DNA of 64,000 nt from assembly GCA_905221235.1 (NCBI GenBank), contig CAJNCJ010000002.1:177699-241698 (forward strand), given 5' to 3'. Position 1 is the first letter of the stretch. The number at the start of each line of letters is the position of its first letter. A program made the position numbers and the translations under genes. Below are positions 19,603 to 22,222 of the stretch, piece after piece. Origin of the DNA: a bacterium. Lineage in GTDB: Bacteria; Bacillota; Bacilli; Lactobacillales; Streptococcaceae. Below the pieces are notes generated by a model. That model saw nothing but the letters and a program-made list of their open reading frames with translations. It made no database searches and had not been told where the DNA came from.

Positions 19603-20556
19603 CTATTCTACCATATTTTTTAAGAAATATTGCTGATAAAAGGCTGGTGGATAAAGCTTTTGCCAATCATTTTGGGGATTTTCTTGGTAATAGGTGTAAA
19701 AGTGCTGATAATAGCTGGTCAAATCTTGCTCAATTTGGAAAAATTTGCCTACTAGTGGTCGAATTTGTGGATACCATTCTTTTAGCCCATAAGTTAGGAG
19801 ATTTTTTCCCTTTTGATAGGCTTCTGCTTGTTCTTTCATCCAAAAGGGATTTTGATAATAGAGCTGTTGTCGGATATAGCGACAGATGTCCCTATCTTGA
19901 GAAACTGTAAAATGAGATATTTTTTGTTTCTTATAGGGAAGACGCAATATTTCCAGTAGACTGCCTTGACCATAGGGAAATTCCTTGATTTGATAATGGA
20001 GTTTACCACGGAGGTCTTGGTGAATCAGGTATTTGAGCCTTAAAAGCTGTTTTTCCTTATCTAATTCCCAAACATAAAAGCCCATGTTGTGACTGAAATA
20101 GAGAAACCCTTGTTGCAGACGAGTCAAACGCTCCTTGAGCCACAGTTTTTGACCCAACAACCACAGTACTTGGTACCCCTGACTACGATAGCCTTCACTT
20201 CGCTCTTTAAGAACTTTTTGAGTCAAATGACTACACTGAACTTCTAGAACTAGATTGCCATTTACAAACACATCCGCAATCTGTTTAAGTTCTGGGAGCG
20301 GGTATTCTAATTGAACCTCTGTCTCTTTTTTCAACCAGTGATAGAGGGATTCCTTATTGGCTAGGTGTTCTGGACTTTCATTTTCAAATGAAAAATCACA
20401 GTCTTTTAAAGATTTATGGGCAAAATGGGTTCGGACACTTGGTCCTTGCCGCAAACGGAGCTGACCTCCACAAGCTGGGCAGGTGTATGCTTGCTTCTCA
20501 AGCTTATTCTCTAACACATTTACCAATTCTCCCCTAGCATCTCTCGCAACAAACAT
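19603..20556 (-). CDS. coiA: Late-competence protein CoiA
   Basis: A 317-aa protein needed for genetic transformation, acting after uptake in RecA-dependent recombination. The N-terminal zinc-ribbon-like segment has YTCPACGGQLRLR and HFAHKSLKDC. It is followed by a restriction-like nuclease motif (IADVFVNGNLVLEVQCS). Its SigX box ends 21 bases upstream of the ATG. The gene is intact despite the hicAB insertion in front. Confidence 0.93.
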   Translation of the reverse strand: MFVARDARGELVNVLENKLEKQAYTCPACGGQLRLRQGPSVRTHFAHKSLKDCDFSFENESPEHLANKESLYHWLKKETEVQLEYPLPELKQIADVFVNGNLVLEVQCSHLTQKVLKERSEGYRSQGYQVLWLLGQKLWLKERLTRLQQGFLYFSHNMGFYVWELDKEKQLLRLKYLIHQDLRGKLHYQIKEFPYGQGSLLEILRLPYKKQKISHFTVSQDRDICRYIRQQLYYQNPFWMKEQAEAYQKGKNLLTYGLKEWYPQIRPLVGKFFQIEQDLTSYYQHFYTYYQENPQNDWQKLYPPAFYQQYFLKNMVE

Positions 20557-20577
20557 GATTTTCCTCCTTTTCTATAT

Positions 20578-20585
20578 TATTCGTA
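20578..20585 (-). promoter_or_regulatory. SigX (ComX) box of coiA
   Basis: TACGAATA on the minus strand, 21 bases upstream of the coiA ATG. It is the octamer of late-competence promoters and forms one end of the left 42-bp repeat copy. Confidence 0.9.
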
Positions 20586-20590
20586 AAAAA

Positions 20591-20619
20591 GAAAAAAGAT
20601 CAGGAAAATTCCTAATCTT
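20591..20619 (-). terminator. Terminator downstream of hicB
   Basis: AAGAT.AGGAA/TTCCT.ATCTT stem on the minus strand followed by TTTTTTC, inside the left repeat copy, 16 bp after the hicB stop. Confidence 0.75.
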
Positions 20620-20634
20620 AATCATTCTATAATA

Positions 20635-21012
20635 TTAGAGTTGCAAGCGACTTTCAAGAGCTTGTGTCAACACTTCAGAATAGTTCACTTTCTCACGATC
20701 TGCAAGTCTGACTAGCCACTCTGGAACCGTAACATTTTTTCGAATCGCCTTATTATTCTTTACGAAAGGCAAGGGATTGACCTGAATCAAAGTCACAAAT
20801 CCATCAGGAGCTTTCAACCTAGAAATGTCACTAGGAGTAGGCAAAGCCAGTCCTTCATCAATATAAGAAGCTAAAACACTCTCAAGCATTTCCCGAGCAT
20901 TTTTCATTGCAAGTTCAAGCGTTTCTCCTTCAGTCCCACCTCCAAATTCCGGAAATTCAACCCAGTATCCAGTGCCTTCTCTATGAAAAATAGCAGGATA
21001 AGATTTTAGCAT
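20635..21012 (-). CDS. hicB: HicB antitoxin
   Basis: A 125-aa type II antitoxin. The N-terminal partial RNase H-like HicB fold starts MLKSYPAIFHREGTGYWVEF with PEFGGGTEGETLELAMKNA. The C-terminal ribbon-helix-helix DNA-binding part is KNVTVPEWLVRLADREKVNY followed by SEVLTQALESRL. The ATG at 21012 has GGAGG six bases upstream; an in-frame start 27 bases earlier would lie across the hicA stop. It neutralises HicA and probably represses the pair through the palindrome at the promoter. Confidence 0.93.
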   Translation of the reverse strand: MLKSYPAIFHREGTGYWVEFPEFGGGTEGETLELAMKNAREMLESVLASYIDEGLALPTPSDISRLKAPDGFVTLIQVNPLPFVKNNKAIRKNVTVPEWLVRLADREKVNYSEVLTQALESRLQL

Positions 21013-21039
21013 AATACACCTCCACAATTTCCAAATCAA

Positions 21040-21228
21040 CTACAGTCCCAAATCTTTTACTATTTTTCTCTCTAAACCTTTTCCTAAATCCTCATTACCG
21101 TGGACTGGAATAGTGACAAGATAGGGAACTCCTTCTTTCTTAAAATGATGATGACTTCCTCTCTTACGAACTTCAATCCATCCATTTGCAAGAGCTAATT
21201 TTACCATTTCCTTACCTGTGATTGGCAT
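21040..21228 (-). CDS. hicA: HicA toxin (mRNA interferase)
   Basis: A 62-aa toxin with the dsRBD-like HicA fold. It begins MPITGKEMVKLALANGWIEV, followed by the catalytic G-S-H-H-H-F motif (His near residue 27) and HGNEDLGKGLERKIVKDLGL. HicA proteins cleave mRNA when free of HicB. Length is normal and the catalytic His is present, so it looks active. It is first in the hicAB operon, 27 bp upstream of hicB. The ribosome site is AAAGGTG. Confidence 0.93.
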   Translation of the reverse strand: MPITGKEMVKLALANGWIEVRKRGSHHHFKKEGVPYLVTIPVHGNEDLGKGLERKIVKDLGL

Positions 21229-21251
21229 TTACGGTCACCTTTCTATCTGAA

Positions 21252-21280
21252 ATTATACTTATAATGCGTATTTTTGTCAA
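21252..21280 (-). promoter_or_regulatory. Consensus SigA promoter and operator-like palindrome of hicAB
   Basis: TTGACA (21280-21275) and TATAAT (21257-21252) are separated by exactly 17 bp, a perfect consensus. ATTATA-AG-TATAAT, an inverted repeat, covers the -10 box and is a likely HicB operator. Confidence 0.85.
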
Positions 21281-21295
21281 TTCTTCTATCTTATC

Positions 21296-21303
21296 TATTC
21301 GTA
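21296..21303 (-). promoter_or_regulatory. Second SigX (ComX) box, upstream of hicA
   Basis: TACGAATA on the minus strand at the end of the right repeat copy, 67 bases before the hicA ATG and 15 bp upstream of the SigA -35 box. It is identical to the coiA box. Confidence 0.8.
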
Positions 21304-21337
21304 AAAAAGAAAAAAGATCAGGAAATTTCCTAATCTT
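21296..21337. repeat. Right copy of the 42-bp direct repeat flanking hicAB
   Basis: The partner of 20578-20619 with one mismatch in the hairpin loop. It begins 9 bp after the tehB-like stop and acts as that gene's terminator (AAGATTAGGAA...TTCCTGATCTT then T run), followed by a SigX box. Confidence 0.92.
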
Positions 21338-21346
21338 CATGTGTGT

Positions 21347-22207
21347 TTATTTGATTTTCTTAGCTAGCATGGTCGCGAAACGTAGTTGAATACGATTTCC
21401 ATTCTCATCGCGACGGTGCAAATGTCCTGGATTTTCATTGTACTTAACCAATTCCCAGTCCTTGTAATAGTCTGCTAGCTCTCCTTCTTTAAATGTGAAT
21501 GGGAAGTTCACTGAGCAAGGATAATCCTCCGTGTCCATGGCACAAACGATAAGATTGTAACCACCGACCGTGGTGTGCTCCTGCATGTTTCGGATAATAG
21601 CTGGAATGCGGTCCGCTTGTAAAAACATGAGAACAACTGTTGATACGATAAAATCATAGGCTTGCCCGATGCTGGCTGAATTGATATCGTAAAGACCAAC
21701 AGGCATATCCAAATCTTCCTGTTCCACAATGCTTTGCAAGATTTCAAGAGCCAGTTCATTTTGATCTACAGCTGTCACATCAAATCCTTGCTGGGCTAGA
21801 AAAAGAGAATTGCGCCCTTGACCACAACCTAAATCCAAGGCTTTACCCGGTTTCACTGTTTGCATAGCTTCCAGAACTTCTGAATGAACAGGATTGGTAT
21901 TGTATTTCTTAGGGAAATAGTCCTCAGGTTTACAATAAAATTCCAAGTACCATTCTACATCGTCTGTGGCAGCTTCCACTCGGTGCCATGCTTGAGGTTG
22001 CGCCATTGGATTGTCTGCTCCTGCTTCAAAGAGGTGTTCAGCTAGAACTTCTCCTTCTTCGGTCAATTCAATAAACTTGAGGGCTCCTTTTACAACAGTA
22101 ATCTTCCCCCAAGTCCCAATCTTGGTATTGTGCTTTTGCTGAACCGCCTCTGGCATGGTTTCTTTAGTCCACAAAGGCATACGTTTATAGGCAACTAGTT
22201 TTTCCAT
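21347..22207 (-). CDS. TehB-family SAM-dependent methyltransferase
   Basis: About 286 aa. An N-terminal cupin-like TehB extension (residues 1-90, IGTWGKITVVKGALKFIELT) is followed by a class I methyltransferase with motif I ALDLGCGQGRNSLFLAQQGF and VTAVDQNELALEI. TehB enzymes methylate tellurite/selenite in vitro; the natural substrate is unknown. The third codon ATG (22207) fits the GAGG site better than the first. It is the last gene of the ybeY-to-smpB run. Confidence 0.88.
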   Translation of the reverse strand: MEKLVAYKRMPLWTKETMPEAVQQKHNTKIGTWGKITVVKGALKFIELTEEGEVLAEHLFEAGADNPMAQPQAWHRVEAATDDVEWYLEFYCKPEDYFPKKYNTNPVHSEVLEAMQTVKPGKALDLGCGQGRNSLFLAQQGFDVTAVDQNELALEILQSIVEQEDLDMPVGLYDINSASIGQAYDFIVSTVVLMFLQADRIPAIIRNMQEHTTVGGYNLIVCAMDTEDYPCSVNFPFTFKEGELADYYKDWELVKYNENPGHLHRRDENGNRIQLRFATMLAKKIK

Positions 22208-22222
22208 TTTCATTTCCTCTTT

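Follow-up and report, generated by a model that had tools for sequence, protein, structure and literature searches.

Toxin-antitoxin pairs under competence control are already known, and the SigX-driven, coiA-linked hicAB predicted here would be a further variant. In Escherichia coli, hicAB has a distal promoter, P1, which is driven by Sxy/CRP-S and yields both proteins, and a second promoter, P2, which is repressed by HicB and yields the antitoxin only (PMC11594946, PMC6957337; all papers are cited here for parts of their text). The Haemophilus influenzae toxTA pair is a competence-induced operon with the toxin first and a second promoter, and toxT is often broken or deleted across strains (PMC6957337). 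In Streptococcus pneumoniae, RipAB is a toxin-antitoxin pair tied to competence (PMC12795458), and the HicBA pair of strain TIGR4 (5yrz) belongs to the HicAB family at SP_RS08870/08865, with no competence link mentioned in the part of the source used (PMC11594946).

The locus described here lies in a 64-kb window, the whole stretch of DNA that was analysed, and consists of a hicAB pair between tehB and the competence gene coiA. Like the E. coli operon, it has the toxin gene first, and a competence-type promoter is predicted upstream of a putatively antitoxin-regulated one. Unlike that operon, it would respond to an alternative sigma factor and not to the activator Sxy/CRP, its competence promoter was apparently gained by insertion beside a competence gene, and, where P2 serves the antitoxin only, the SigA transcript predicted here would begin shortly before the hicA ribosome site and may or may not yield HicA. 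It shares with toxTA the order of genes, a second promoter, a predicted competence induction and a toxin gene that is disrupted in some strains; toxTA differs in its unrelated proteins (best structural match HigB/HigA), and in its CRP-S control, and the text used does not speak of a duplicated competence promoter. The TIGR4 HicBA is distant in sequence and sits at another locus, and in RipAB the toxin induces competence, whereas the prediction for hicAB is the reverse, induction by competence. A preliminary description of the locus knew of no described case; this is too broad in general, given toxTA and the E. coli hicAB, and for streptococci none was found among the top-ranked papers of the literature searched. 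No report of a SigX-controlled hicAB was found among the top-ranked papers of the literature searched, supplementary tables aside. The words "toxin" and "hic" are absent from the main text of the S. mitis CSP RNA-seq paper on two strains (PMC6001120) and from the portion used of the S. mutans core-regulon paper (PMC5069739), and a mitis-group comparison (PMC6722419) names one toxin-antitoxin module and, in the portion used, no coiA.

The features are listed in Table 1. All lie on the minus strand, in the order tehB, terminator, SigX box, SigA promoter, hicA, hicB, terminator, SigX box, coiA. The direct repeat of 42 bp (41/42 identical) reported in the preliminary description was recovered and extends to 45 nt (96% identity), and both copies contain a terminator-like hairpin, a T-run directly after it and the 8-mer TACGAATA. 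The hairpins fold at -12.8 kcal/mol (copy 1) and -11.5 kcal/mol (copy 2), with z-scores of -3.7 and -3.8, and both beat 200/200 shuffles. The consensus SigA promoter and the separate SigX box of coiA, likewise described before, were also found. The SigA promoter lies 15 bp downstream of the hicA-side box, and hicA and hicB are spaced by 27 bp in the same operon. They are the only annotatable ORFs between the repeats, and no integrase or transposase was seen in the inserted unit.

Table 1 Features of the tehB-hicAB-coiA locus (positions in the 64-kb window)
Feature	Position	Strand	Evidence
tehB, upstream neighbour	21347..22213	-	Pfam TehB PF03848 317 bits + DUF1971
Direct repeat copy 1 (terminator + T-tract + SigX box)	21296..21340	-	43/45 to copy 2
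Terminator hairpin copy 1, tehB terminator	21313..21338	-	Folding vs shuffles
Extended ComX/SigX motif before hicA	21289..21317	-	28/29 positions; core TACGAATA 21303-21296
Predicted SigX start for hicAB	about 21288	-	End of extended motif
SigA-type promoter of hicAB, TTGACA-17-TATAAT	21252..21280	-	12/12 consensus positions
Predicted HicB operator, imperfect palindrome ATACGCATTATAAGTAT	21255..21271	-	Between -35 and -10
hicA, toxin, 62 aa	21040..21228	-	HicA_toxin PF07927 68.6 bits; GSHHHF motif
hicB, antitoxin, 125 aa	20635..21012	-	HicB_lk_antitox PF15919 42.2 bits
Direct repeat copy 2	20578..20622	-	43/45 to copy 1
Terminator hairpin copy 2, ends hicAB	20596..20619	-	Folding vs shuffles
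Extended ComX/SigX motif of coiA	20571..20599	-	28/29 positions; core 20585-20578
coiA, competence gene	19603..20556	-	CoiA_nuc PF06054 90.5 bits

We propose that hicAB was inserted into the tehB-coiA gap of a strain of the Streptococcus mitis complex and that the insertion duplicated a 45-bp unit made of the tehB terminator and the coiA SigX promoter. The pair would then have two stacked promoters, a distal, copied SigX promoter upstream of the predicted HicB operator and a proximal consensus SigA promoter with that operator inside it. The copied terminator would end hicAB and should insulate coiA, which would retain its own box. At the onset of competence, SigX would transcribe hicA-hicB strongly from a start near 21288 with a leader of ~60 nt; the SigA transcript would start near 21245, a position that we take from the rule for the distance from the -10 element, and would have a very short leader. 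Recombination would then have carried the allele to other strains of the mitis complex and on into another lineage. To this reading, that promoter capture put hicAB into the SigX regulon, with the activity of the promoter predicted, we give a probability of roughly 0.74. The layout of the locus, its empty and occupied sites, the conserved sequence, the patchy distribution and the broken toxin gene of 4/13 carriers are observed; SigX-dependent transcription, the function of the operator and any physiological effect are what we infer.

A DNA search covered 284 genomes of the genus, of which 226 matched, and was supplemented with region fetches and one scan of named genomes. Among the matches listed, from which weaker sites may be missing, the empty tehB-coiA interval held a single repeat unit in 22/22 readable genomes and never two, and the occupied interval with contiguous hicAB held two units in 12/12. 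Empty intervals were 65-75 bp long, with the exception of G015 (178 bp), where a RUP-like repeat lies beside the unit. hicA is intact in the window, G169, G048, G100, G238, G228, G220 and S. mitis CAMHZQ (L082), and holds a ~106-bp insert in G159, G094, G227 and G229; in the 13th carrier, G102, the locus falls on two contigs, each of which holds one unit. The distribution is patchy, and carriers include genomes labelled S. pseudopneumoniae 163_SPSE, S. pneumoniae SMRU824 and S. mitis 850_SMIT, labels that may be wrong. G095, G106 and G167, which have a mitis-type coiA with contig breaks or tehB out of reach, were left out of the counts. The terminator-box pattern (<=3 mismatches) was searched in six genomes and was present in five, solely at the tehB-coiA locus, with two sites in G048 and G220 and one in G094, G089 and G158; no such pattern was found in G100 at this threshold, and T-runs are shorter there. 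The ancestral order tehB-terminator-SigX box-coiA suggested in the preliminary description agrees with these counts, and an insertion history with a duplicated control region is well supported by comparison of the sites.

Other variation was seen at the same place. The tehB-coiA gap is an insertion hot spot, as five genomes (L031-L034 and L108; G109, G198, G107, G092 and G201) have inserts of 4.3-13.8 kb instead of hicAB, which end exactly at the T-tract of the coiA box. The L034 insert, the only one scanned, encodes a YSIRK/LPXTG surface protein with DUF1542 repeats, and one ORF in the L031 insert is 4402 codons long. Among the fetched genomes of oralis type (L067-L080), ~1.4 kb of other sequence separates tehB from coiA, and the coiA box reads TTCGAATA. 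The tehB match of G159 (L007) is one base short with a broken frame, and coiA of G227 (L009) has one internal stop.

The extended ComX/SigX motif TTTTTNHNNNYTHTTMCGAATADWNWRRD is 29 nt long and ends at the start site (Slager et al., PMC6560143). Three sites with <=1 mismatch were found in the window, those before hicA and coiA with 1 mismatch each and one at 42611-42583 before a comEA-like gene with 0; in 20 simulated windows, a mean of 0.05 sites had 2 mismatches and none had fewer. The comEA-like ORF, the only other gene in the window with such a site, begins 19 bp past its SigX box and encodes SLBB and helix-hairpin-helix domains. For the core TACGAATA, 0.8 occurrences would be expected in the window and 5 were counted, of which three precede the comEA-like, hicA and coiA ORFs and two lie inside opposite-strand ORFs. 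The seven bases that follow the box before hicA (box 1), GATAAGA, lie outside the repeat and yet fit the extended motif. In S. mitis, TTCGAATA promoters were SigX-dependent by RT-PCR, TGCGAATA is given for ssbB and comGA, and coiA was induced 58.6- and 139.6-fold by CSP (PMC6001120). A SigX promoter on hicA is strongly predicted, and its input to hicAB may be minor next to the strong SigA promoter. Palindromes near TACGCATAATGCGTA occur at the same place in relatives of hicAB, as judged by eye, and the palindrome of Table 1 is a putative operator to which HicB would bind. It lies downstream of the predicted SigX promoter and within the SigA promoter, and the regulation itself is predicted. Folding of the leaders predicted for the SigX and SigA transcripts was no better than that of shuffled sequences, and we therefore do not propose an RNA switch.

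HicA, HicB, TehB and CoiA were confirmed by the Pfam search (cut-off 27 bits for both HicA and HicB), and NCBIfam and PADLOC gave no match to HicA or HicB. The motif G[STC]HHHF is conserved in the 11 intact HicA copies translated, and its His is presumably catalytic. The best solved relative of HicB is 5yrz_A (E 1.9e-12). By domain content, hicAB is a type II toxin-antitoxin pair with the toxin first. Its closest relatives away from coiA in the collections searched are, by HicB identity, the hicAB of satellite phages of anginosus-group and other streptococci (77%) and the rplS-linked hicAB of S. mitis M334 (80%), with the hicAB of enterococcal plasmids more distant (51%); no SigX motif was seen upstream in the satellite-phage and M334 regions read. 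In Javan66 and Javan63 (S. anginosus satellite phages) and phiJH1301-3 (phage-like, S. suis), hicAB lies near one end (L145, L146 and L147) and is annotated as hypothetical proteins.

In the four carriers with the insert (4/13; L007-L010), hicA is broken after ~11 codons by a dispersed repeat, and the frame stops after 28 codons. The repeat, which we take to be a RUP element, has a 34-nt head that matched 33-119 times per genome across six genomes. hicB is intact in 13/13 carriers, and the HicA toxin appears dispensable because hicA is interrupted in these four. A changed second codon of hicA is common to three of the four disrupted copies.

A second lineage, represented by G170 and G173, carries the same hicAB (94 and 92% identity in hicA, 87 and 90% in hicB), in front of a coiA with only 69% identity. 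G217 and G241, whose coiA is nearest (92 and 91% over that stretch), gave no hicAB match before coiA. The sequence 5' of hicA reads TACGAATAGATG in G170 and TGCGAATAGATG in G173, and that 5' of coiA reads TTCGAATA. Upstream of the hicA box the sequence has been replaced, by a G5-domain gene in G170 and by other sequence in G173, and the 45-bp repeat was not seen in either genome. Mismatches to the extended motif at the hicA box number 7 in G170, which keeps the 8-mer and has lost the T-tract, and 3 in G173; at coiA there are 2 in both. SigX control of hicAB is therefore doubtful in G170, though not to the same degree in G173, and the odds of promoter capture are slightly lower on account of G170. 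The hicB-side terminators of both have a mitis-like left arm (by eye), and transfer of hicAB out of the mitis type is therefore likelier than the reverse. The coiA frame of G170 (L013/L035) is lost.

Box 1 reads TACGAATA in 13/13 carriers; it departs from the extended motif at 0-2 positions, never more than the coiA box of the same strain does. The coiA box differs at position 2 in 5/13 (TG in G048 and G094; TT in G228, G159 and CAMHZQ), and the 8-mer is absent from 6/22 empty-site boxes. One site of 23 segregates in box 1 and the spacer to the -35 element, fourfold sites segregate at 5/22 in hicA and 10/49 in hicB (15/71 together), and the flanking genes have 60/94 (tehB) and 41/66 (coiA). 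In a set that is young and small in numbers, the low variation of box 1 favours constraint; it may also come from recent spread and not from selection. The most serious competitor to promoter capture, unlikely but with a real chance of being right, is that the box was duplicated by accident, that hicAB lives on SigA and that any SigX transcription is without consequence. The perfect SigA promoter so close to the box, the insert that breaks hicA in four carriers and the G170 box with its 7 mismatches are in keeping with this, as is the report that deleting S. mitis-unique CSP-responsive genes left transformation unaffected (PMC6001120). It is harder to reconcile with a box that is invariant next to a coiA box varying in five strains and that fits the motif at least as well as the latter in every carrier, or with the 3-mismatch motif that G173 keeps despite its replaced upstream sequence.

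Mean silent divergence among carriers was 0.10 for hicA (n=9 of 13), 0.09 for hicB (n=13), 0.46 for tehB (n=11 of 13) and 0.30 for coiA (n=13). The values for hicAB are about 3-5 times below those of the flanking genes, and hicAB therefore seems to have reached most backgrounds recently; dN/dS was 0.13 for hicA and 0.18 for hicB. The occupied/empty label changes 10 times on the coiA trees (35 rows, 22 empty and 13 occupied) and 11 times on the tehB trees (30 rows, 18 and 12), and shuffled labels average 10.7 and about 9.6, respectively. These data fit a presence/absence allele that is freely exchanged at a fixed place, presumably by homologous transfer through transformation, and the trees alone fit gain and loss alike. 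The two-copy state could instead be old and the empty sites the product of recombination between the 45-bp repeats; a deletion of this kind would yield precisely one copy, and the unclustered label would suit it. Such a history is improbable in view of the low silent divergence of hicAB relative to tehB and coiA in the same strains, the empty state of G154, whose mitis-type site diverges most, and the lack of hicAB from the fetched sites of oralis type; hicAB may occasionally be lost.

Among 35 distinct hicAB upstream regions at other loci, none matched the extended motif with <=3 mismatches, and the one at 4 mismatches lacks the core. On these regions the SigX box is no general trait of hicAB, and for the same reason it most likely came with the coiA site. 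That hicAB brought its own SigX box and that the repeat formed later by conversion is very improbable, for although G170 and G173 have a SigX-like 8-mer at hicA with no 45-bp repeat seen, copy 1 has the native tehB terminator next to the box, an arrangement also found in the empty sites, the other loci lack the motif, and the copy-2 terminators of those two genomes point to transfer out of the mitis type.

At hicAB loci other than coiA, TACGAATA was also considered as a box: TNCGAATA lies 84-99 bp before hicA in 11/35 of the distinct non-coiA regions, and the 8-mer there comes after the csn2 stop (csn2 match in 10/11, csn2 tail alone in L124). It was rejected as a SigX promoter, as by eye a T-tract is missing and a hairpin comes next. 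A related hicAB adjoins csn2 and type II-A CRISPR repeats in 12 genomes (L122, L125-L130, L133, L135, L137, L138 and L140; L098 is the same genome as L126), with the ORF order cas1-cas2-csn2-hicAB-repeats where read (L128, L130 and L126), and in 10/12 of this set TNCGAATA follows the csn2 stop without a T-tract.

Three readings of the role of hicAB are considered: it may have no effect, it may slow or arrest competent cells, or it may defend itself against curing by transformation. That transformation can rid cells of mobile elements has been proposed before (PMC4774983, PMC12637031), and toxin or curing words are not mentioned in the part of PMC4774983 used. Transformation would swap the occupied for the empty allele, and competent cells alone would lose hicAB in this way; the stolen competence promoter would charge exactly those cells with HicA/HicB and poison recombinants that have lost the locus. 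We hold such an anti-curing device to be rather unlikely. If true, it would account for the recent spread through many lineages, for the position of hicAB at a competence promoter and for the disrupted toxin genes, as a later escape.

If promoter capture is correct, competence control of toxin-first pairs would have arisen separately in gamma-proteobacteria (Sxy/CRP-S) and in streptococci (SigX). The streptococcal case would come with a traceable history, in the form of the empty site, the promoter in two copies and naturally occurring alleles with a broken toxin gene. A single locus with such natural controls would make a standing question testable, namely whether these pairs benefit the competent cell or protect their own presence when transformation could remove them.
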